Of a stretch of 35,868 bases of DNA, positions 1 through 30,550 are shown piece by piece (positions within the stretch are counted from its first letter, which is position 1; every line of letters starts with the position of its first letter). A program made the translations under genes and the position numbers. The DNA comes from Myxococcaceae bacterium (GTDB lineage: Bacteria > Myxococcota > Myxococcia > Myxococcales > Myxococcaceae), in NCBI GenBank assembly GCA_020247085.1, contig JADCJJ010000064.1, forward strand, positions 1 to 35,868, given 5' to 3'. The notes under the pieces were generated by a model, which was not told the origin of the DNA, did no database searches, and saw only the letters and a program-made list of their open reading frames with translations.

Positions 1-270
1 GGGTCCGTCGATGCCGGGTCCGTCGATGCCGGGTCCGTCGATGCCGGGTCCGTCGATGCTGGGTTCGTCGATGCCGGGTCCGTCGATGCTGGGTTCGTCG
101 ATGCCGGGTTCGTCGATGCCGGGTCCGTCGATGCTGGCTCCGTCGATGCCGGGTCCGTCGATGCTGGATCCGTCGACGGTGGCTCCTTCGATGGTGGAGC
201 GGTCGACGCGGGCGCAGCGGATGCTGGAGACGCCGACGCGGGCGCCGCCGATGCTGGAGACGCCGACGCC
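1..270 (+). repeat. 15-bp tandem repeat encoding GSVDA-type pentapeptides
   Basis: Eighteen in-frame 15-bp units are visible, with consensus GGGTCCGTCGATGCC in the first eleven and increasing divergence towards the 3' end (GAVDA, GAADA, GDADA). The array runs off the left edge, so the true copy number is unknown. The 5' units are nearly identical while the 3' ones are diverged, as expected when slippage or unequal recombination expands one end of the array. Confidence 0.95.
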
Positions 271-450
271 GGAGACACCGGTCTCACCGACGGCGGCCCC
301 GACATCGAGAGCGGCGGTACGGTCTCGCTGCTCCCGGACGTGGCGTTCCGGGGCGGCGGGTGCGGCTGTACGTCTCCTGACGCCGGGAGCGTGCTGGCCC
401 TCGCCGGGCTCCTCTCGCTGGTCCGGCGCCGGCGCAGGACGCGACGCTGA
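1..450 (+). CDS. MYXO-CTERM surface protein, C-terminal part (5' end outside window)
   Basis: Reading from base 1 in frame 1 gives 149 open codons ending in TGA at 448-450; the start lies upstream of the window. The visible protein begins with 18 pentapeptide units of the form G-x-x-D-A/G (mostly GSVDA), followed by a short spacer and a tail with GGGCGC, a hydrophobic stretch (VLALAGLLSLV) and a run of arginines. That tail is the MYXO-CTERM sorting signal (TIGR03901), known to mark exported surface proteins of myxobacteria that are processed at the C-terminus, so this should be an envelope-anchored protein with a flexible acidic stalk. The functional N-terminal domain is not visible. An overlapping frame beginning at base 11 reads MPGPS repeats but lacks the sorting tail and is rejected. 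Confidence 0.88.
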   Translation, partial: GSVDAGSVDAGSVDAGSVDAGFVDAGSVDAGFVDAGFVDAGSVDAGSVDAGSVDAGSVDGGSFDGGAVDAGAADAGDADAGAADAGDADAGDTGLTDGGPDIESGGTVSLLPDVAFRGGGCGCTSPDAGSVLALAGLLSLVRRRRRTRR

Positions 451-11362: not shown

Positions 11363-12595
11363 TCAGCGTGCCTGGGGGGCCCGCCGCTTCACCAGGTCGC
11401 GCGGCGTGGGCGGCCGGGGGTCGGGCGCGTCGAAGGGCTCCTCGACGAGGTCGAAGCGGCCATGGTCGAACGGCACGCCCGGAGCGGCCTCGCGCAGCAC
11501 CAGGCGCTCGCGCAGCCCCCGCCGCGCGAGCGTCTTCGCGCGGAAGTGACAGTACGGGTTGTTGCCGGGCCGCCCCAGCACCGCGTGGGCCGTGAAGGTG
11601 CACCCGGCGAGGCAGCGCTCGGCGAAGGGGCACTCGCGGCAGAAGCCCCACAGCGCCTCGACCGTCCGCGCCCGCGCGAAGCCGATGCGCTCCGAGCCCT
11701 CCCACAGCTCTCGCAGCGAGCGCTCGGCGAGCGAGCCGCCGACGTACGACGGCTGGAGCGACGGGCAGCCCTTCACCGCCCCGTGCGCCTCGATGCCCAT
11801 GACGAAGCGCCCCGCCTGACAGCCCGCCCACGCGTCCTCGGGAACGACGCCGGCGAGCGACCGCAGCTCGGGCTCGTCGGGGTGGAAGTAGCCGAGGTTG
11901 TTTCCCGGCATCACCGCCAGCCTCGCCTCGCGCCAGGCGCGGCGCTTGAGCTCGAGCACCCGAGGCACCAGGTCGAGCAGGTTCCACGGCTGCAGCAGCA
12001 TCGCCGGGCGGTCGGCCGCGCGCCCCAGCGGCGCCGTCACCTGGAGCTGCCACGCCGTCGCGCCCTGGTCGCGCAGGTGCTCGTACAGCCCCTCGAGGTC
12101 GCCGACGTTGAGACGGTTGACGTTGGTGTTCGCCGACACCCGCACGCCAGCCTCGCGCAGGAAGCCCATCGCCGCCGTGGCCGCGGCGAAGCTGCCGCGC
12201 GAGGCACGCATCAGGTCGTGCGTCGCCTCGAGCCCGTCGAGCGACACCGACGCCTGGTAGAGCCCCGCGCCGGCCATCGCGAAGGCCAGCCTTCGGTCGA
12301 CGCCGCGCCCCCCGGTGGTGAGCACCGGGCGAATGCCCGCCTCCTTCAGCGCCGCCACGACGTCGAGGAAGCCCGGGTGCAGGTAGGCCTCTCCGCCGAT
12401 GAGCACCACCTCGCGCGTGCCCAGCGCGGCGAGCTCGCCGACGACGGCCAACGCCTTGTCCGTCGTCAGCTCTCCCTCGCGGGCCGTACCCGCCCGGGAG
12501 CCGCAGTGGGTGCACGGCTGGTCACACGCGAGCGTGAGCTCCCAGACGACGTACGCCGGGTGCCAGGCCGCCGAGAGGTCCTGCCGCCGCGACAT
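11363..12595 (-). CDS. Radical SAM/SPASM peptide-maturase-like enzyme 1
   Basis: The 410-residue protein has the radical SAM cluster motif C-x3-C-x2-C (C24, C28, C31 in ACDQPCTHCGSR), the GGEA SAM-binding segment and SVSLDG. The C-terminal SPASM region has GCQAG, KGCPSLQ, WGFCRECPFAERCLAGC and NPYCHFRA, enough cysteines for two auxiliary Fe-S clusters. SPASM enzymes mostly modify ribosomal peptides or protein side chains by radical chemistry. It aligns over its whole length with the enzyme at 23384-24733, sharing CTHCGSRAG, LIGGEA, SLDGLE.THD, ADRP, CQAG, KGCPSL, SYVGG, LWGFC, PGNNP and RGLRER. ATG 12595 lies 3 nt after the stop of the small gene at 12599 (TGA CGC ATG), so the two are almost certainly translationally coupled and that protein is the leading substrate candidate. 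Confidence 0.9.
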   Translation of the reverse strand: MSRRQDLSAAWHPAYVVWELTLACDQPCTHCGSRAGTAREGELTTDKALAVVGELAALGTREVVLIGGEAYLHPGFLDVVAALKEAGIRPVLTTGGRGVDRRLAFAMAGAGLYQASVSLDGLEATHDLMRASRGSFAAATAAMGFLREAGVRVSANTNVNRLNVGDLEGLYEHLRDQGATAWQLQVTAPLGRAADRPAMLLQPWNLLDLVPRVLELKRRAWREARLAVMPGNNLGYFHPDEPELRSLAGVVPEDAWAGCQAGRFVMGIEAHGAVKGCPSLQPSYVGGSLAERSLRELWEGSERIGFARARTVEALWGFCRECPFAERCLAGCTFTAHAVLGRPGNNPYCHFRAKTLARRGLRERLVLREAAPGVPFDHGRFDLVEEPFDAPDPRPPTPRDLVKRRAPQAR

Positions 12596-12598
12596 GCG

Positions 12599-12946
12599 TC
12601 AAGGCCCCGCGTCAGCGCCCGCGTCGCTCGCCGCCGCGCCGCCGTCGGTGCTCCCCGCGTCGCCTGACTTCACCCCGGCGTCGGTGCTCCCCGCGTCGCG
12701 CACCTCACCGCAGACGTAGTCGGTCTGCCGCCCCCCATCGGGCAGCGTGATGCTCTCGTAGCAGCTCGACGGCGCCGCCCCGTAGCACGCCATGAGCGTC
12801 ATCGACGCCCCCAGCCCGCCGAGCAACCCCAGCGCCAGCTTGCCCACCCGCGCCGTTCTCGAACCTTCGGCACCGCAGTGCGGACAGGCCGACGCCGACG
12901 AGGGAACGACTCCGGAACACGACGAACACTTCGTCAACGCAGACAT
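12599..12946 (-). CDS. Small zinc-ribbon/TM protein with ACYG motif, putative radical SAM partner
   Basis: The 115-residue protein starts at ATG 12946, with GGGAGG about 9-10 nt upstream. It has a zinc ribbon at the N-terminus (CSSC...CPHC, residues about 7-24), a hydrophobic helix (about 33-52, LALGLLGGLGASMTLMAC) and then ACYGAAPSSCYESITLPDGG, a further cysteine (YVCGEV) and an Asp/Ala/Gly/Ser-rich tail. The cysteine in LMAC could be read as a lipobox, but it follows a 30-residue cytosolic part, so a simple membrane anchor is more likely. It ends 3 nt before the radical SAM/SPASM gene. From memory, paired radical SAM/lipoprotein systems of other phyla (TIGR04133/TIGR04134) also carry a Cys followed by a YG motif; that comparison is unverified. 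The role as modification substrate is inferred from coupling and motif. Confidence 0.75.
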   Translation of the reverse strand: MSALTKCSSCSGVVPSSASACPHCGAEGSRTARVGKLALGLLGGLGASMTLMACYGAAPSSCYESITLPDGGRQTDYVCGEVRDAGSTDAGVKSGDAGSTDGGAAASDAGADAGP

Positions 12947-13090
12947 GGTTGTGAGACCTCCCCGACCCGTGATGGGCACGAGCCGGAGCAAGGCCTGCGC
13001 CATCGGAGAACCTGCCGGAATCAGAGCGCAGCACCGCCGCGTGGGCCTCGGTCAGGCGTAGACCCTGACGGCCATGACAGGGTGCCGGCA

Positions 13091-21368: not shown

Positions 21369-22330
21369 ATGATGGGCTCGGACGGCCGGGGTGCAGCAGA
21401 GGCGTCGGTGGTGCGGCAGGGCTGGCTGCAGGTGTGCGAGCCGGTGCCGGCGCGGGTGCGGCGCAAGGTGTCGGCCTTCCTTCGCTGCGGGGACGTGCGG
21501 CCGGGCTTCGTCGAGGTGTCCTGCGACGAGTGCCACCAGTCCGACGAGGTGGCGTCCCGGCGCATGAGGAGCGGCTTCTGCCCCTCGTTCTCCAACCGTC
21601 GGGCGGTGGAGTCGGGTGAGAGGTTGGTGGCCCTCCTGCCGCGCGTCCGCCTCCGGCAGTGGACCGTCAGCGGCCCCGTCTGGCTGCGCTTCGCCGTGGT
21701 GAAGCGCCCGACGCTGCTGCAGGCGCTGGAGGCCAGGATGGTGCGCGCCACCTGACGCTGGCAGCGGCGGGGAGCACACAGGCTGGGCGCCCATGGCCCG
21801 CCTCGCGGCGACGCCGTCGTCTTCACGAGAGTGGCTCGGCTCGATGCTTCAACCGACGCCGCACCTCCACGCGCTGCTCTCTTCAGGCGCTGTGGGCGCA
21901 AGACGGCAAGGCGATGGACTTCCCCGCACCCGACGACGCCATCCTCCGGCGCGTCTTGCGCCAGGCCCGCAAGCACTTCACCGCCGAAGACGTCACGTGG
22001 CCTGCGGACGAGGACGAGGCGCTCCAGCGCGCATCCCTCCAGCGCCCGGTGCCGCTGGACTCGCCAACGCGTCCACGCCGGCAGCGCGTCGCCCTGGCCG
22101 TGGGCTTCTCCCTTCCCGCCGACGCCGCCGTCCGTGGCAACGACAGGGCGACTTCGAGCGCCTGGCCCGGTCGCCCTGGTGGCCTACCGCCCCTTCCCCA
22201 CCGCACACCCGCGCTCGCCACGCCTGGGCCCTCGCCTGCCTCCGAGGCCACGGCCCCCTCCCGGAGCCCGTCACCGGCGCGCCTGCAGGACGTCCCCTTC
22301 TCAGCCAGTCCTTCGCCGCCTCTTGACCCT
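21369..22330 (+). mobile_element. Degenerate IS91-type (Y2) transposase
   Basis: Successive plus-strand frames carry pieces of an IS91-family transposase. The frame from 21369 has RCGDVRPGFVEVSCDEC and GFCPSFSNRR, matching the zinc-binding region (PF14319), where the usual GFCPSC cysteine is now F, and RLRQWTVSGP, matching the conserved VRQWVLSLP. After a stop at 21755 another frame gives LQPTPHLHALLSSG (21850-21890), the H-x-H motif of the Rep-like catalytic domain (PF04986). A third gives DFPAPDDAILRRVLRQARKHF and a fourth FERLARS. At least three frame changes and a stop show the gene is dead. I found no clear IS91 ends or ori/ter signals. It lies just upstream of the peptide-maturase block. 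Confidence 0.72.
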
Positions 22331-22741: not shown

Positions 22742-23359
22742 ATGCCGCGCATCGGGAAACCCGCTCCGAAGACGACGAGCCGCTCGTCTTCGCCGAAGGC
22801 CACGACGAAGGCCTCGACGGCGAAGGCCTCCACGAAGGCCTCGGGCACGAAGGCGTCCGACAAGGTCGAGTTCCCGCGCGCCAACTGGAAGGATCCGGTC
22901 AAGTTGAACGACACGATCAACCGCGCCAAGGACCGCCTGGGCCTCAGCGACCACCCGCGCGGTCGCTACACGAAGCCAGAAGGGGGGGCGCCGCGTCCGC
23001 CAGTGGTGGCGCGCTACGGAGTCATCCGCCCGCCCGTCGATGGTGGGAACAAGCCGCCAAAGCCGCCAGTGGTCGCTCGCTACGGCGTCATTCGCCCGCC
23101 CGTCGATGGTGGAACCAAGCCGCCAAAGCCGCCAGTGGTCGCACGTTACGGGGTCATTCGCCCGCCCGTCATCGACGACGGCTCCACCCCGCCGCGCCCG
23201 CCGGTGGTCGCCCGCTACGGCGTCATCCGCCCGCCCGTCGACACCGATCCGCCGCGTCCCCCCGTGGTCGCCCGCTACGGCGTCATTCGCCCCCGCCCTG
23301 GCATCGAGACCAGGCCCCGGCCCAGCGCGGGCCGCGCGCGTCGTGGCTCCGTCGAGTAA
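22742..23359 (+). CDS. Putative multi-core RiPP precursor with five PPVVARYGVIRP units
   Basis: The 205-residue protein starts at ATG 22742, with AAAGGA at 22730-22735 (6-nt spacing). Residues 1-40 are Lys/Ala/Ser/Thr-rich with KAS/TKAS repeats, 42-70 form a more ordered stretch (VEFPRANWKDPVKLNDTINR) that could be a recognition leader, and from 86 on five identical units PPVVARYGVIRP occur at 86-97, 108-119, 130-141, 153-164 and 173-184. Linkers such as PVDGGNKPPK differ in length. The C-terminus is Arg-rich. There is no signal peptide. A radical SAM/SPASM gene begins 24 nt after the stop. Identical repeated cores plus such an enzyme are the mark of multi-core RiPP precursors; the likely modified residues are in R-Y-G-V-I-R. 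The alternative is a structural repeat protein that is modified but not cleaved. Confidence 0.82.
   Translation: MPRIGKPAPKTTSRSSSPKATTKASTAKASTKASGTKASDKVEFPRANWKDPVKLNDTINRAKDRLGLSDHPRGRYTKPEGGAPRPPVVARYGVIRPPVDGGNKPPKPPVVARYGVIRPPVDGGTKPPKPPVVARYGVIRPPVIDDGSTPPRPPVVARYGVIRPPVDTDPPRPPVVARYGVIRPRPGIETRPRPSAGRARRGSVE
22997..23293 (+). repeat. Five imperfect direct repeats encoding the PPVVARYGVIRP core
   Basis: Units lie at 22997-23032, 23063-23098, 23129-23164, 23198-23233 and 23258-23293. Tyr-to-Tyr spacings are 22, 22, 23 and 20 residues. At DNA level the Ala codon is GCG, GCT, GCA, GCC and GCC in order, Gly is GGA, GGC, GGG, GGC and GGC, and eight of twelve codons vary, yet no amino acid changes. 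The linkers do change amino acids and length. Confidence 0.95.
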
Positions 23360-23383
23360 CCCGCTGCGCCCCGTCACCCGCGC

Positions 23384-24733
23384 ATGACGAAGGTCGAGAA
23401 GCCGCGAACGCCCCGCCGGCGTGCGGCGGCTGGTGCGAAGTCAGGGCCATCGACACCCGAGAAACCCGCGTTCGCATATGCCGAGCGCCTCAAGGACTAC
23501 CGGCGCACGGCGTACGCGGTCTGGGAGATCACCCTCAAGTGCAACCTCGGCTGCACGCACTGCGGCTCGCGTGCTGGTGACAAGCGCGAAGACGAGCTGT
23601 CGACCGCCGAGGCGCTCGACCTCGTCCAGCAGCTCGCCGACGCCGGCATCACCGAGGTGTCCCTCATCGGCGGAGAAGCCTTCCTTCGCCCAGACTGGCT
23701 CGAGATCACCCGCGCCATCGCCGACGCGGGCATGATCCCCACCATGGTGACGGGCGGCTATGGCATCAGCCTCGCCACGGCCCAGAAGATGCGCGACGCC
23801 GGCATGGCGCAGGTGTCGATCTCGCTCGACGGCCTCGAGAAGACACACGACACGCTGCGGGGGAAGCCGGGCTCGTTCTTTCAGGCGCTCCAGACGGCCA
23901 GGAACTTCCGCACCGCAGGCCTCGAGTTCGGGTGCAACTCGCAGATCAACCGGCGCTCTGCGCCCGAGCTGCCCCGCCTCTACGAGGTGATCCGCGACGC
24001 CGGCGCCAACGGCTGGCAGTTCTCGCTCACCGTGCCCATGGGCAACGCGGCAGACCGGCCGGAGCTCCTCATTCAGCCCGTCGAGCTGCTCGAGCTGTTC
24101 CCGGTGCTGGCGCGCGTCACCTGGCGTGCCAACCGCGAGGGCGTGCGCGTCATTCCAGGCAACGACATCGGCTTCTTCGGGCCGTACGAAGAGATCTTGC
24201 GCGAGGAGCAGTTTCGCCTTGGCGCCTTCTGGCAGGGCTGTCAGGCAGGCCTGGGGTCGCTGGGCATCGAGGCCGACGGGAAGATCAAGGGTTGCCCGTC
24301 GCTCCCCTCTGACAGCTACGTCGGCGGCAACGTGCGCGACCTGCCGCTCCAGGAGATCCTCAAGGCGAAGGAGCTCACCTTCAACCTCGAGGTCGGCGGC
24401 ACCACCGAGGGCACCAGGCCGTTGTGGGGCTTCTGCAAGACGTGCGACTACGCCGACCTCTGCCGCGGCGGCTGCACGTGGACCGCCCACGTCTTCTTCG
24501 ACAAGCCCGGCAACAACCCCCATTGCCACCACCGCGCCCTCACCATGCAGTCCCGCGGTCTGCGCGAGCGCGTCGAGCTGAGAGAGAAGGCCTCGGGCCT
24601 GCCCTTCGACAACGGCGTGTACGAGCTCAAGGTCGAGCCCCTCGACGCGCCGTGGCCTCAGAACGATCCGCTCCGCTTCACCGCCGACAAGGTGGTCTGG
24701 CCCGACAGCTGGAGCGCGTGGCCGACGTTCTGA
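23384..24733 (+). CDS. Radical SAM/SPASM peptide maturase-like enzyme 2
   Basis: The 449-residue protein has a Lys/Arg/Pro-rich N-terminal extension of about 40 residues, then the radical SAM core with C53, C57 and C60 in KCNLGCTHCGSR, LIGGEAF and SISLDGLE. The SPASM part has GCQAGLGSLGIEADGKIKG, CPSLPSDSYVGG, FCKTCDYADLCRGGC and NPHCHHRA, enough cysteines for two auxiliary clusters. Such enzymes form C-C, C-O or C-N links or epimerise residues in ribosomal peptides. It follows the five-core precursor by 24 nt and precedes a small gene by 37 nt, so the three look like an operon. It has no obvious N-terminal PqqD-like recognition domain. Start ATG 23384 lacks a strong ribosome binding site, which fits coupling to the upstream gene. 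It is a full-length paralogue of the enzyme at 11363-12595. Confidence 0.92.
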   Translation: MTKVEKPRTPRRRAAAGAKSGPSTPEKPAFAYAERLKDYRRTAYAVWEITLKCNLGCTHCGSRAGDKREDELSTAEALDLVQQLADAGITEVSLIGGEAFLRPDWLEITRAIADAGMIPTMVTGGYGISLATAQKMRDAGMAQVSISLDGLEKTHDTLRGKPGSFFQALQTARNFRTAGLEFGCNSQINRRSAPELPRLYEVIRDAGANGWQFSLTVPMGNAADRPELLIQPVELLELFPVLARVTWRANREGVRVIPGNDIGFFGPYEEILREEQFRLGAFWQGCQAGLGSLGIEADGKIKGCPSLPSDSYVGGNVRDLPLQEILKAKELTFNLEVGGTTEGTRPLWGFCKTCDYADLCRGGCTWTAHVFFDKPGNNPHCHHRALTMQSRGLRERVELREKASGLPFDNGVYELKVEPLDAPWPQNDPLRFTADKVVWPDSWSAWPTF

Positions 24734-24770
24734 CACACCACCGCAGCACCAACGCCCGGAGGGGATCGCC

Positions 24771-25061
24771 ATGCAGGAGTACCTTCTCAAAGTGAACGAC
24801 TCAGCCTCGAAGGACGTCGCCGAGTGGCTGCTGCTCGCGAAGGCGCCGACGCACGTGCGCCTCGCCACGCTCGCGCCGCTGTCGAACTATGGCTACCCCT
24901 CGGGGGCTGACGCGGCGGTGCTGAAGCTCACCGTGCACGGCGTGGTGACGGGCCAGGCCGGTGGTGACGAGGCGCCACACGACTTCGTGCCGTGGCAGAA
25001 CGTCGCGTACCTCTCGGATGGTTCGGGCCTCGCGAAGGAGCTGGCTGGCGCGAAGAAGTAG
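24771..25061 (+). CDS. Small unknown protein in the precursor/radical SAM operon
   Basis: The 96-residue soluble protein starts at ATG 24771 with GGAGGGG at 24758-24764, an excellent ribosome binding site. It begins MQEYLLKVNDSASKDVAEWL, has LSNYGYPSGADAAVLKLTVHG in the middle and FVPWQNVAYLSDGSG near the end, suggesting a small alpha/beta or beta-rich fold. I do not recognise a family. Its size and place make it a candidate recognition element, chaperone or immunity protein for the peptide system, but no PqqD-like winged-helix pattern can be shown by eye. It also contains a YG dipeptide. Confidence 0.8.
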   Translation: MQEYLLKVNDSASKDVAEWLLLAKAPTHVRLATLAPLSNYGYPSGADAAVLKLTVHGVVTGQAGGDEAPHDFVPWQNVAYLSDGSGLAKELAGAKK

Positions 25062-25252: not shown

Positions 25253-28200
25253 TCATTGCGTGGCGACGCCGGTGGTCGGCGCGTCACGCACCTCGAAGCG
25301 CATCTCGTCGGCGGTCGCCTGGATCTCGGGCGCGTACATGGCCTCGGCGCGGGCGGGGAGCGCCGAGAACCGACCCGGCGTCTCGGCGCGCAGCTCGTAC
25401 GAGAGCTTCGTCGTGCCGACCTTGAGCTCAGAGAGGAACATCGCCACGCGGTCGGCGCGGAGCTCCGCGTGGGCGCAGGCGAAGTTGCACACCTCTGGGC
25501 CCGAGCGCTGCTGCACGGCCTCGAAGCCCGCGGGCTTCAGGTCCTCCAGCATCACGAACTCGACGGCCTTGTTCGCAGTGACCTCGAGGTCCACCCGCAC
25601 GCGAACGCCCGACTCGACCGGCATGCCGTACTCGGTGGGCGCGGTGCTCTTCTCCGCGCTCGGCTTGCCGAGGAGCGTGTAGGTGCGCGCGACCTTCACG
25701 TCGCCGCCCACGCCCTTGATGAAGTCGTTCTGGTTGAAGACGTCCCAGGTGCCGGCCCAGTAGCCGGTGCCGCCCCCGTCGCGCCGCACCTGCACGGTGT
25801 TCTTCCCCGGCTTGAAGTCGGCGTCGGTGAACACCAACGCGGGCACGTCGAGGCCGCCCTGCGCGTACTTCACCACCTTCACCTGCCTGCCGTTGATGGT
25901 GACGGTGAGGGTGCCCTGCTGCGCGGGGGCCTTCTCACGGCGCGCGATGTCGGCGAGCGCGTAGATGGCGAAGGCCGTGTCGCGAGTGGTGCGCCACTTG
26001 CCGCCGTTGCGCCGCAGCACGAGGAAGTCGGTGAGCGACCCGACGTCCTTCGCGCCCCCGGCCCAGCGCGACATCGCCATCAGCGTGTACGCGGTGGCCT
26101 CGATCGCGGCCGAGGTGCTCCAGGCGTCGTTGACCTCTCCCACCGCCGCGTCCTTGCGGGCCTCGGCCGTCTTCACCACATCGTCGAGGTTCTCCACCGT
26201 GATGCGCGCCCGCGGGTCCTTCGCGGCGAGGAACGCGAGCGCGACGAGGGCCCGGCCGCGGGGCTGCATCTTCGTGCGCCGCTCGAAGGTCTGGTCGAGT
26301 ACCGCCTTCGGCACCGGCCCCGACTGCGCGAGCGCGTAGACGGCGAAGGCGTGCGTGTCGGGGTGGTCGAGCGCCTCGCCGAGATGAGCGAGGAGAAAGG
26401 CCCGGCCGCGGGCGACCATGTTCGCGTCGAACGCCAGGCCGGCGCCCTTCGCGAGCCCGAGCGCGTAGACGACGTACGCCGTCATCCACAGGTTGGTGCG
26501 GTCGCTCTGCCACCAGCCCCAGCCGCCGTCGCCGTGCTGAAAGCCGGCGAGCCGCTCGAGGCCCTGCTGCACCATGTCATCGAGGTGGGGCGGCAGCCGC
26601 TCGGACGGCAGCGACAGGTCCTTCACCGCCTTGCGCGCGATGACGGCCGGCACGAAGCGCGAGAGCGTCTGCTCGACGCAGCCGTACGGGTACTGCGCGA
26701 GGTACGGCAGCCCGTCGAGCATCACCGCGAGGAGCGAGGGCGAGAGGTTGAGCTCGAGCTTCGTCAGCGCCGCCTTTCGCTTCTGCGGGAGCTCGACGTC
26801 GAACGAGAACGTGTCGGAGAGCCGGCCCGCGAAGAACTGCCGCTGCGCCGAGCCGTGCACGAGCGCGGGAATGGTGAGCTCCATCGCGTCGCCGGTCGCG
26901 CCCGACGTCACCTGCGCGCGAATCAACCGGTCGCCGAGCTCGACCACCTTGAAGCGCACGTCGAAGCGGGTGACCTGCTCCGGCGTCACCGTGAGCGTCT
27001 TCTTCGTCGGCCCGAGCGCGGTGAGCCCTGGCGCGCTGAGCGTGACCGCGACCGGGCCGGCCTTCGGCAGGTGGCTCTCGATGACGGCCGAGAGCACCAC
27101 CTCGTCGCCCTCGATGAAGAAGCGCGGCGTCTGCAGGCGCACCATGAGGGCGCGGGCGGTGCGAAGGCTCGCGGCGCCGCGGCCAAGGCTCGGGCCCTGG
27201 GTGACGACCGTCGCGACGGCCTTCCACGCGGTGAGCGAGTCGGTGAGCGTGATCGGCTGCGCCAGCGGCGCGTCGATGCGGCCGACGAGCCCGGGGTACC
27301 AGCCGGCCGAGCTGCCGAAGTCGGTGCGGGCCTTCACCGGCGTCAAGTCACCCCGGGCGCTGCCGTCGGCGTCCGCTTCAGCGTCGCGTGGCCCCGACGA
27401 CGCCCTCCGCTTGGCCGGCTCCAGAACGCGCTCGGCCGGGGGCACCGCGGCGGGCGCGGCCATCGAGGCGACAGCGAGGTCGGCCTTCTCCTCTTCGCGT
27501 CCCGCGACGTCCTTCATCACGGCCCCCCTCACAGCCGGCGCTTCGGGCGGCTCGGCGCCCGGCGCCGCGGGCTGTGGGTCCGGGCGATCGCGGTAGCTGC
27601 GCCACTCCGTGGAGCGGTGGGTCTGCACGGCGTGGTTGCGGCGCTGGCGACCGAAGAACGTGAGGAAGTCCTGCCGCTCGGGCTCGATCGCGAACAGGGC
27701 CTCGTCCACCACGGTGAGCGCGGTCTCCATCGGCCCGGCGGCGCCCTTCGTGGCACGCACGTTCACCGGAATGGTGGCGCCCGGCTCCACGACGGCGCGC
27801 TCGAACGCCACCTTCACGTCGAGCTCCACCTCCGAGCCCTTCACGCGCAGCTCGCGCTGCTGCTGGAGCACGTCTCCTCGCTCGTACCGGCTCGCGAACA
27901 GCCACGCGTTCGGCGTCGCCTCGGCCGGAATGGGAATCTCGACGTACCTCGTGCGCCCCGTCATCTCGACCACGCGGCTGGTGACGACGAGGTCGTGCTC
28001 GAGCGTCAGCCACACGTGGCCGCCCGGCTGGGGCGTGACGATGAGCGCCCGCAGCGCCTGGCCGACCGCGAGCGGCGCTCGGTCCATCAGGAGCTGGAAG
28101 CCGGGCCCCGGTGGAGGGAGCGGCTTCGTCTCCGAGGTGAGCCAGAGGTCGGCGGTCGCGAGCGGCGGCTGCTCGGGCCCGGCGTCGACGTCCACCACGT

Positions 28201-30550
28201 CGACCCGCACGGCCCCCAGCGCGTCGGCGTCGAGCTGGGCCAGGCCCTGGCCGTCGACGATCTTCGTCCGCGCCTCGGCGATCTTCGACAGCGCGCCGGT
28301 GTTCGGGTCCGAGATGCGCGAGAGCCGCACCACCACGTCGGGCGACATCGGCCGGCCGTTCGCGTCCTCCGAGCGCAGCCGCAGCGTGACACGCTCCCCG
28401 GGCCGGTAGAGGAAGTGTTCGCTGCGCACGTCGACGAAGTACGGCGCGCGCGAGATCCTCGCCACGCCGGTGCCGGCGACCTCCCGGCGCGAGGCGTCGG
28501 TGACGAAGACCTGCGCGGTGACCTGCAGATCGCCCTCCGCCCCGGGCGTCGCGGGCACCTCGAGCTCGGCGGTGCCGTCGGCGCCCGTCTTGAAGACGAG
28601 CGTGTGCGTCGCGACGACGCTTTCGTACCCGCGGGAGCCACCGCGGCGGAAGGGGCGCGCGTCGTCGAAAGAATCGTCGCCAAAGCCGCGATAGGCAGGC
28701 TGACCGTCCTGCGCCTCGTCGGGCCACTTGCCGAACTGGTGCTGCCAGTGGCTCACCGTGACGACGGCCCGGCCCTGGGCGCCCGTGAGCGGCCCGCCAG
28801 AGTAGTACTTCGCGGTCACCTTCAGCTTCACCGGGTCGCCGGGCTTCGGGCTGCCGACGGGGCTCACCGAGACGGTCGCCTCGGGCGGCTTGTACGCCTC
28901 GACGCGGAACGTGAGCCCCGGCTGCTGGTACGCGTGCTGGCCGTCGGAGACGTTCACGGACCAGGCGCCCAGCGTCGCCGTCTTCGGCAGCACGAGGGTG
29001 GTGCTCGCGGTGCCGAAGCCGTTGGTGGTGAGCGAGGGCTTCGCGACCTCCTTGCCGTTCGGGTCTCGCACCTGCACGGAGACGGTGCGGTTGACGATGG
29101 GCTCCGACGGCCCGCCTTCGCGCGCGCGGAGGAAGAGCTTGAGGCCCACCGTCTCGCCCGGCTTGTAGAGCGGCCGATCCATCAGCACGTAGGCGAGCTC
29201 CTGCTTCGACCAGCTCGACCAGTACGCGTTGCCAGCCCGTCCGTACGCGACCTGCTGGCCGCGCTTCACCCAGACGGAGTGCGAGTCGGCGAAGGTCTCC
29301 TTCTCGAGCTGGAAGCTCGCGAGGCCCTGGGCGTTGGTGCGCGCTGTCCGCGTCGCCTCCCAGGCGCCGCGGATGAGCAGCACCTCGGCGTCGGGCTGCG
29401 CCCTGCCGGTCTCGACGTCGGCGACGAAGACCTGCACCTGCTTGCGGTCGCTCTTGGTGATGACGCCCAGCTGGCTCTGCATCGCGAAGTCGCGCGCGGT
29501 AAGCCCGTCGCCAGTCGCCTCCAGCACGTAGAGGCCGGGGGAAGGCAGCTCGAGCTCGAAGCTCCTGGTGCCCGGGGCCCACGCCGTCTTCACCTCGAGC
29601 GCCTCGCTCCAGGTCTTCTCGGCGGCGCCGGTGGCGTACGCGTCGATGGAGTTGGGGTCGTTGCCGTCGCGGCCGGCGAAGGGGTCGACGCGCCTGAGCG
29701 TCCACGTGACGCGCTTGACGTTCCGCCACGAGAGCGAGACCGGCAGCTTCAGGCCCGGCAGCGTCACCTGGTACGCGCTGACCGAGAGGGTCGGCCGGCG
29801 GATGTTCTCGGCGGCGTTGCGCGCGTCGCCGTGCCGGTTCGAGGTCGTCGGCGAGAACCGCTTCACGACGCCGTCGTAGATGGTGAGCGCGTCGGAGTAC
29901 TGCTCCCGGCCCTCACGCTGCTGGCCGAGGCGGTAGAGCGCGTCGTCGGCCCAGGTGGTGTTGGTCGCGCCGATGTCGGTGAGCTCCTGCTCGCCCTTGC
30001 CGCGGGTCGCCTCGCGTTGCAGCCAGCCCTGCGCGCGAGCGAAGCGGGCGTGGGCCCGGTCACCCTCGCTGCTCGCGTACTTGAGCACCACGGCGGTGAG
30101 CTCCGCGGAGAGCTCCACGTCGTAGTACTGGCTGTCGAGCTGGAGCAGGCAGCCTTCCACGAGCAGGCGGCGCGCCTCGTCGCCCACGCGCCCGGCGGCC
30201 TTCGTCGCTGCCTCGAGCAGGGGGAGCGCCTGCTGGAAGGTGCGGTAGCCCTGCGAGGCGAGCGCCCACTGCGCGTAGGCGCGGGCGAAGTCCTGCTCGC
30301 CGGTTTCGGCCAGCCTCGACAGCTCGGTGGAGCCGTCCTTCCGGCCCGCCCTCCAGCAGGCGAGGGCGCGCTTGGCGGAGGCCTCGCGGGCGAGCGGTGA
30401 CGCGGGCCCGGCCTTGAGGAACGAGTCGAACGCCTCGCAGGCCTTCGCGTAGGACTGCTCGGAGAGGTACGTGTTGGCGGCGTCGAACGACGCGCTCTGG
30501 GCGAGCGCGGACGACGAGACGAGCATGACGGCAAAGACACACAGGCGCAT
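25253..30550 (-). CDS. Large bacterial alpha-2-macroglobulin with thioester motif
   Basis: The 1765-residue protein begins with a signal peptide (MRLCVFAVMLVSSSALA) without a lipobox, so it should be soluble in the periplasm or secreted, unlike the lipid-anchored type of E. coli. Residues about 20-240 are helical, TPR-like. Then follow many macroglobulin beta-sandwich domains (for example MDRPLYKPGETVGLKLFLRA). Residues about 980-1075 form a long Pro/Ala/Glu-rich disordered stretch, matching a bait region. The thioester motif GCVEQ is present with the cysteine at about residue 1291, followed by the helical TED domain. Alpha-2-macroglobulins trap attacking proteases after bait cleavage. The usual partner, penicillin-binding protein 1C, is not next to it. 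ATG 30550 is preceded by GGGGAG. Confidence 0.93.
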   Translation of the reverse strand: MRLCVFAVMLVSSSALAQSASFDAANTYLSEQSYAKACEAFDSFLKAGPASPLAREASAKRALACWRAGRKDGSTELSRLAETGEQDFARAYAQWALASQGYRTFQQALPLLEAATKAAGRVGDEARRLLVEGCLLQLDSQYYDVELSAELTAVVLKYASSEGDRAHARFARAQGWLQREATRGKGEQELTDIGATNTTWADDALYRLGQQREGREQYSDALTIYDGVVKRFSPTTSNRHGDARNAAENIRRPTLSVSAYQVTLPGLKLPVSLSWRNVKRVTWTLRRVDPFAGRDGNDPNSIDAYATGAAEKTWSEALEVKTAWAPGTRSFELELPSPGLYVLEATGDGLTARDFAMQSQLGVITKSDRKQVQVFVADVETGRAQPDAEVLLIRGAWEATRTARTNAQGLASFQLEKETFADSHSVWVKRGQQVAYGRAGNAYWSSWSKQELAYVLMDRPLYKPGETVGLKLFLRAREGGPSEPIVNRTVSVQVRDPNGKEVAKPSLTTNGFGTASTTLVLPKTATLGAWSVNVSDGQHAYQQPGLTFRVEAYKPPEATVSVSPVGSPKPGDPVKLKVTAKYYSGGPLTGAQGRAVVTVSHWQHQFGKWPDEAQDGQPAYRGFGDDSFDDARPFRRGGSRGYESVVATHTLVFKTGADGTAELEVPATPGAEGDLQVTAQVFVTDASRREVAGTGVARISRAPYFVDVRSEHFLYRPGERVTLRLRSEDANGRPMSPDVVVRLSRISDPNTGALSKIAEARTKIVDGQGLAQLDADALGAVRVDVVDVDAGPEQPPLATADLWLTSETKPLPPPGPGFQLLMDRAPLAVGQALRALIVTPQPGGHVWLTLEHDLVVTSRVVEMTGRTRYVEIPIPAEATPNAWLFASRYERGDVLQQQRELRVKGSEVELDVKVAFERAVVEPGATIPVNVRATKGAAGPMETALTVVDEALFAIEPERQDFLTFFGRQRRNHAVQTHRSTEWRSYRDRPDPQPAAPGAEPPEAPAVRGAVMKDVAGREEEKADLAVASMAAPAAVPPAERVLEPAKRRASSGPRDAEADADGSARGDLTPVKARTDFGSSAGWYPGLVGRIDAPLAQPITLTDSLTAWKAVATVVTQGPSLGRGAASLRTARALMVRLQTPRFFIEGDEVVLSAVIESHLPKAGPVAVTLSAPGLTALGPTKKTLTVTPEQVTRFDVRFKVVELGDRLIRAQVTSGATGDAMELTIPALVHGSAQRQFFAGRLSDTFSFDVELPQKRKAALTKLELNLSPSLLAVMLDGLPYLAQYPYGCVEQTLSRFVPAVIARKAVKDLSLPSERLPPHLDDMVQQGLERLAGFQHGDGGWGWWQSDRTNLWMTAYVVYALGLAKGAGLAFDANMVARGRAFLLAHLGEALDHPDTHAFAVYALAQSGPVPKAVLDQTFERRTKMQPRGRALVALAFLAAKDPRARITVENLDDVVKTAEARKDAAVGEVNDAWSTSAAIEATAYTLMAMSRWAGGAKDVGSLTDFLVLRRNGGKWRTTRDTAFAIYALADIARREKAPAQQGTLTVTINGRQVKVVKYAQGGLDVPALVFTDADFKPGKNTVQVRRDGGGTGYWAGTWDVFNQNDFIKGVGGDVKVARTYTLLGKPSAEKSTAPTEYGMPVESGVRVRVDLEVTANKAVEFVMLEDLKPAGFEAVQQRSGPEVCNFACAHAELRADRVAMFLSELKVGTTKLSYELRAETPGRFSALPARAEAMYAPEIQATADEMRFEVRDAPTTGVATQ

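Follow-up and report, generated by a model that had tools for sequence, protein, structure and literature searches.

A five-core precursor with a PlpY-like leader beside a PlpX-type radical SAM enzyme: a probable tyramine-excision operon in Myxococcaceae

Organization of the Five-Core Operon

The window, i.e., the whole stretch of 35,868 nucleotides analysed here, carries on its forward strand (22742-25061) three consecutive genes, lying where the original prediction had placed a precursor, a SPASM enzyme and a 96-residue protein. The first (22742..23359, +) encodes the 205-residue precursor P0001; it is preceded by the ribosome binding site AAAGGA, and its start methionine is shared by the orthologue of a same-genus genome (G003). 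A gap of 24 nt separates its stop codon from the gene (23384..24733, +) of a 449-residue radical SAM/SPASM enzyme, a putative splicease assigned as a PlpX homologue on the basis of its identity to PlpX, its TIGR04103 and Pfam matches and its position in a phylogeny; after a further 37 nt, an ORF behind GGAGGGG (24771..25061, +) encodes the 96-residue companion protein P0003. Neither a signal peptide nor a leader protease nor an exporter is seen within the operon. The presence of an RRE (PqqD-like winged helix) was considered and rejected: neither the precursor nor the 96-residue protein has a corresponding Pfam match and the enzyme has none of RRE type; PlpY, the partner protein of PlpX, is likewise too small for an RRE fold (PMC12710340). 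Just upstream of the operon, the zinc-binding domain of an IS91-type transposase survives as a remnant (21369-21755, +), and the left end of the window (1-280) is occupied by a tandem 15-bp repeat, GGGTCCGTCGATGCC. Convergent with the operon is a gene for a bacterial alpha-2-macroglobulin, a protease trap (25253-30550, -); as the operon of G003 is followed by another gene, this neighbourhood is probably accidental.

The precursor contains five identical copies of the unit PPVVARYGVIRP, re-found exactly as first described, at residues 86-97 (22997..23032, +; XYG site R91-Y92-G93), 108-119 (23063..23098, +), 130-141 (23129..23164, +), 153-164 (23198..23233, +) and 173-184 (23258..23293, +). The sole tyrosine outside these cores, Tyr76 (RYT), is not followed by glycine. 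The chain is Pro-rich, with a low-complexity Lys/Thr/Ala composition, and matches no Pfam or NCBIfam family, the Nif11 class included; a match to the precursor in genome G021 was rejected as a Pro-rich linker belonging to an unrelated protein. Pairwise, the core units differ at 3-7 positions per 36 nt, and the 45 differences found in these comparisons are without exception at third codon positions; in none of 2000 trials with equally many randomly placed changes did the units stay identical. In the G003 orthologue the five units are kept, with 23 nucleotide changes and no amino-acid change across them. Third-position-only variation, together with the retention of all units in G003, indicates that the core array is old and selected for its protein sequence. 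The operon genes are under purifying selection, with dN/dS values of 0.074/0.51 for the precursor, 0.019/0.35 for the enzyme and 0.024/0.20 for the 96-residue protein. The proposal that a RiPP-type precursor with several cores is paired with a dedicated SPASM radical SAM modifier holds up, as this arrangement recurs in the RYG/KYG repeat homologues; when these were checked for copies lacking a radical SAM neighbour, all those found had the enzyme directly downstream.

The Radical SAM Enzyme Is a Homologue of PlpX

The enzyme harbors a CxxxCxxC motif at residues 53-60 and matches the Pfam Radical_SAM and SPASM families. Its best NCBIfam match is TIGR04103 (nif11-class peptide radical SAM maturase 3), which we take to be the same family as IPR026482; with 673.3 bits it remains below the equivalog cut-off of 725 bits, and it is thus classed as a PlpX homologue rather than a TIGR04103 equivalog (PlpX scores 824.4 bits). 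PlpX, the tyramine-excising enzyme of Pleurocapsa, is a member of IPR026482 and, with PlpY as partner, processes Xaa-Tyr-Gly (PMC11002830). The two enzymes share 60% identity over 409 residues. The sequence used as PlpX comes from a cluster in genome G142 (locus L180), reached by searching relatives of a Xenococcaceae locus, with two Nif11-type precursors, one carrying GGAVAAMYGVVFPWDNE and the other ending in PLFPIRPLYGLPI; the cores PIRPLYGLPI and AVAAMYGVVFP match the PlpA2/PlpA3 splice tags printed in PMC10533398, and it is on this agreement of the cores that the identification of the L180 enzyme as PlpX rests.

In a phylogeny of 55 sequences with SH-aLRT support, the window enzyme, those of G003 and G010 and two from G008 constitute one clade (SH-aLRT 99), all of them with PlpY-like leaders in cis (see below); a further branch (SH-aLRT 98) unites the window enzyme with PlpX and separates both from the lipoprotein-type enzymes. 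Among the 25 NCBIfam matches listed, the sole cyclophane-type maturase is DynA, a distant one (47 bits against 450), and a PDB sequence search returned general SPASM matches only (SkfB, PqqE and cytosylglucuronate decarboxylase).

XYG Precursors Accompany the Enzyme Family

The precursor, whose gene ends 24 nt before that of the enzyme, carries five ARYGV sites, each an instance of XYG, the motif at which splicing is described in the literature (PMC10533398, PMC11002830); the earlier impression that no family with this core had been described is thus wrong at the level of the class. One scan of named genomes yielded 525 relatives of the enzyme, 80 of them kept. XYG precursors adjoin the family in Cyanobacteriota, Myxococcota, Eremiobacterota and Pseudomonadota; at some of the remaining loci none was seen within the DNA examined around them. 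The cyanobacterial relatives among the 80, mostly 61-66% identical, adjoin Nif11-leader precursors with LYG/MYG cores. Within Myxococcaceae, the neighbouring XYG proteins are varied and comprise small GG-leader peptides (KYGLPP, RYGLPP), two-site proteins (MYGVF, MYGVV), lipoprotein-like proteins (CYGAP, LYGVPC) and repeat proteins. Precursors with multiple cores were also seen in Eremiobacterota (ten cores), Thiothrix, Thiofilum and further lineages; in the G015 precursor, which has ten divergent cores, most positions vary and Y-G is invariant. Across related systems the residue before tyrosine is Arg, Lys, Met, Leu, Val, Ile, Ala or Cys and Y-G is fixed; in the clade of the window enzyme, X is Arg or Lys in all 21 of 21 cores. 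The characterised PlpXY substrates in the literature examined have Met, Leu or an engineered Gly at X, and Arg was not found there. At loci L169 and L172, from Eremiobacterota-type genomes, ten-core MYG/LYG precursors lie opposite a gene for a protein of the 96-residue type; the further opposite genes encode, as judged by eye, 2-oxoglutarate oxygenase-like and asparagine synthetase-like proteins.

A PlpY-like Element in the Leader

PlpY is encoded by a 56-residue ORF directly after PlpX and contains VLPRQGWQDKQAFIKALIKAKQSL. Small ORFs with the motif [FL]PRxxW are found just downstream of the enzyme at nearly all cyanobacterial loci examined, and 56 such trans ORFs were collected. The Myxococcaceae repeat precursors carry this motif inside their leader; the window copy reads EFPRANWKDPVKLNDTINRAK and belongs to an element at residues 44-68 (FPRANWKDPVKLNDTINRAKDRLGL; 22871..22945, +), summarised as FPRANWKDPVKLNDTINRAK, which is supported by motif scan, profile-profile score and intermediate precursors. 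The motif scan found no separate PlpY gene in the window operon, and at none of the loci examined do cis and trans forms occur together, a distribution partly confounded by phylogeny, as nearly all trans loci belong to one cyanobacterial clade.

An HMM of the trans-PlpY ORFs was searched against 5,749 ORFs from loci without a collected trans ORF. Its top matches are a cyanobacterial ORF missed by the motif rule (L111), followed by precursor leaders, namely that of G015 (E 0.001) and those of L158 and L157 (E about 0.02-0.03); a precursor of another family in G217, with LPRSGWANQATLNQNVAQARATLD and several XYG sites, is matched at E 0.002. This G217 precursor (L189, 9353-10744, -) is 463 residues long, with a PlpY-like leader and long helical-looking inserts between its XYG sites. 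On its own, the leader of the window precursor gives no significant match with this HMM (E about 21), and its link to PlpY therefore rests on the group profile and the intermediates: a profile of five RYG/KYG leaders scores 28.3 against trans-PlpY, and all of 300 column-shuffled controls score 15.4 or less. As sequence, the resemblance to PlpY is well supported for the RYG/KYG group; in function, the leader would stand in for PlpY. This idea fits with PlpY being too small for an RRE (PMC12710340) and with the RiPP leader being dispensable once PlpXY is supplied (PMC10533398). The operon in turn suggests a role for PlpY, that of a leader supplied in trans.

Proposed Reaction and Possible Function of the Product

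The most probable reading, to which we give a probability of roughly 85% on the basis of sequence comparisons, is that the operon performs tyramine-excision splicing and constitutes a spliceotide operon; the membership of the enzyme in the PlpX family at 60% identity and the invariant Y-G with variable X both lead to this expectation. Points against it are the TIGR04103 score below the equivalog cut-off, the failure of the trans-PlpY HMM to detect the window leader by itself, the lack of Arg at X among characterised PlpXY substrates in the literature examined, and an operon in which neither protease nor exporter is seen. Published splicing takes place at XYG sites with loss of C8H9NO and can affect multiple sites per precursor (PMC10533398, PMC10373908, PMC11002830). 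In the window organism, the leader segment FPRxxWxDxxxLxxxIxxAK would probably dock the precursor onto the radical SAM enzyme, a separate PlpY gene being thereby unneeded. At each A-R-Y-G-V site, a tyramine equivalent (C8H9NO) would be cut from the tyrosine and the chain rejoined, so that the preceding arginine becomes an α-keto-β-amino (ketoamide) residue. The predicted loss is 135.068 Da per core, hence up to 5 × -135.068 Da for the full-length precursor (from 21,914.04 to 21,238.70, monoisotopic), and the expected product is a Pro-rich protein bearing five tethered ketoamide-arginines.

This raises the question as to what such a protein would do. It would most likely inhibit trypsin-like proteases in a reversible and multivalent manner, either intracellularly or after release by lysis, a function for which the odds nevertheless fall just short of even. 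Protease inhibition is a reported effect of spliceotide β-residues (PMC10373908), and cyclotheonamide A, a natural ketoamide, forms a hemiketal with Ser195 of trypsin (PMC8154582). The occurrence of Arg or Lys before tyrosine in every core of the clade suggests inhibition of trypsin-like proteases, and five Pro-flanked ketoamide-arginines on one chain would fit a tethered inhibitor of this kind. Alternatively, splicing may occur and yield a protein with a structural or regulatory role, for example self-crosslinking or amine-trapping through its keto groups. The operon's apparent lack of means for export or leader cleavage, the tethering of five sites to one chain, the existence of relatives with Met, Leu or Val at X and the reactivity of a Gly-type ketoamide, sufficient for tetrazine ligation (PMC10533398), make this alternative a serious one; it is nonetheless somewhat doubtful, as the basic residue at X throughout the clade fits inhibition better and known ketoamide inhibitors (PMC8154582, PMC10373908) favour it too. 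Whatever the function of the spliced product, the precursor would offer a natural substrate encoded by one gene, its five splice sites identical and equipped with a basic P1-like residue, of use for making ketoamide-arginine proteins and for studying protease inhibition.

The 96-Residue Companion Protein

Homologues of the 96-residue protein are present in 7 of the 195 Myxococcota genomes searched and also at multi-core splicease loci of other phyla. It belongs to no Pfam or NCBIfam family, and a PDB sequence search gave no convincing match. An AlphaFold2 model based on 7 sequences (mean pLDDT 88) predicts a β-rich fold; the best Foldseek hit of this model has an E of 0.56, with no clear fold match, and with VIA-align (best Z 3.1) Sm/Hfq-like, SH3-like and SspB rows are tied, so that no fold is assigned. 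In G024 (L021, 2200-2941), a homologue directly follows a 145-residue Pro-rich protein devoid of YG, with LLSRGAP/LISRAGG/LLSRSGA repeats and no radical SAM enzyme nearby, which may be a decayed or a different modification system.

The 96-residue protein accompanies multi-core systems facultatively. Its gene lies directly after that of the enzyme, as PlpY does, in five Myxococcaceae genomes (G000, G003, G008, G010, G015), a position that would suit a required partner replacing PlpY in place of the leader. Such a replacement is unlikely, since the protein bears no resemblance to the PlpY motif, is missing at a second G008 locus with an equal precursor type, has no adjacent enzyme in G024 and is encoded about 7 kb from the splicease gene in G217; for want of the motif, and given its occurrence apart from adjacent enzymes, it was rejected as a PlpY. 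A broader proposal, which is tentative and has the odds against it, takes PlpY as a leader acting in trans, the window precursor clade as its cis-fused counterpart and a genetically encoded multivalent trypsin inhibitor, and the 96-residue protein as a new accessory (chaperone or immunity) protein.

Other Chemistries

SPASM radical SAM enzymes form crosslinks in other RiPPs, and Arg and Tyr are neighbours within each core; both points speak for one crosslink per core, be it of the Arg-Tyr type known from ryptides or a three-residue cyclophane, at -2 Da each. This is very improbable, as the closest characterised enzyme is a splicease and the variation of the residue before tyrosine, with Y-G kept, misfits a chemistry on arginine; a variable X with a fixed Y-G is predicted by XYG splicing and not by an Arg-Tyr link. 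Ryptides conserve both Arg and Tyr as the crosslinked residues, a pattern not found here. The crosslink or epimerisation chemistry of the original prediction (-2 or 0 Da) is thus not borne out for an XYG core next to a PlpX homologue, and the mass shift expected per core is corrected from -2 to -135 Da. The reading of the repeat protein as a common structural protein rich in proline, with an accidental enzyme neighbour, as its composition might suggest, can practically be dismissed given the repetition of the arrangement in four further genomes (G003, G008, G010, G015), the XYG precursors adjoining the enzyme family in several phyla and the silent variation among units.

Comparison with Known Systems

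The operon, previously unrecognised, is now placed within a known, unusual chemistry: the reaction class is known and reported to be widespread. Like the PlpXY system of Pleurocapsa sp. PCC 7319 (PlpA, PlpX, PlpY), it possesses a PlpX-type enzyme, similar flanks around XYG (AVAAMYGVVFP in Pleurocapsa, VVARYGVIRP in the window) and the possibility of multiple splicing of one precursor. In contrast to that system, its precursor has neither a Nif11 nor a nitrile-hydratase leader, a PlpY-like segment lies in the leader and a separate PlpY gene is lacking, PlpD is missing from the operon, an extra 96-residue protein is present, and the five cores are identical with Arg at X. Scott et al. (Chem 2022, as cited in PMC10533398) reported 939 predicted splicease systems as widespread, with protease inhibition; as far as the citing papers convey, the enzyme class and the motif are common to those systems and the window. 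TIGR04103, the best family match of the window enzyme, differs in that the window score lies below its cut-off and the precursor is not of the Nif11 class. Cyclotheonamides and other natural α-ketoamide protease inhibitors resemble the expected product, as a likeness in working only, by a ketoamide beside a basic side chain; they are small macrocyclic peptides, in contrast to the window's repeat protein. In its design the precursor looks like a new variant; as far as checked, with Scott et al. compared through citing papers, the new elements are the location of the PlpY element in cis, the clade of multi-core precursors with Arg/Lys at X and the 96-residue companion.

A Second Splicease-like Pair in the Window

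A second enzyme of the splicease family, 410 residues long and of another subclade, is encoded 10 kb upstream of the five-core operon (11363..12595, -); it shares 45% identity with PlpX, scores 424 bits on TIGR04103 and falls into a separate clade of the tree (SH-aLRT 98). The adjoining gene (12599..13003, -) encodes its probable substrate, with a zinc-ribbon N-terminus and a hydrophobic segment that closes with a lipobox-like MTLMAC and is followed by CYGAP. The lipobox-like cysteine is at the same time the X of the XYG site (MTLMACYGAP), and pairs similar to that at 11363-13003 are found at loci L068, L069 and L070.
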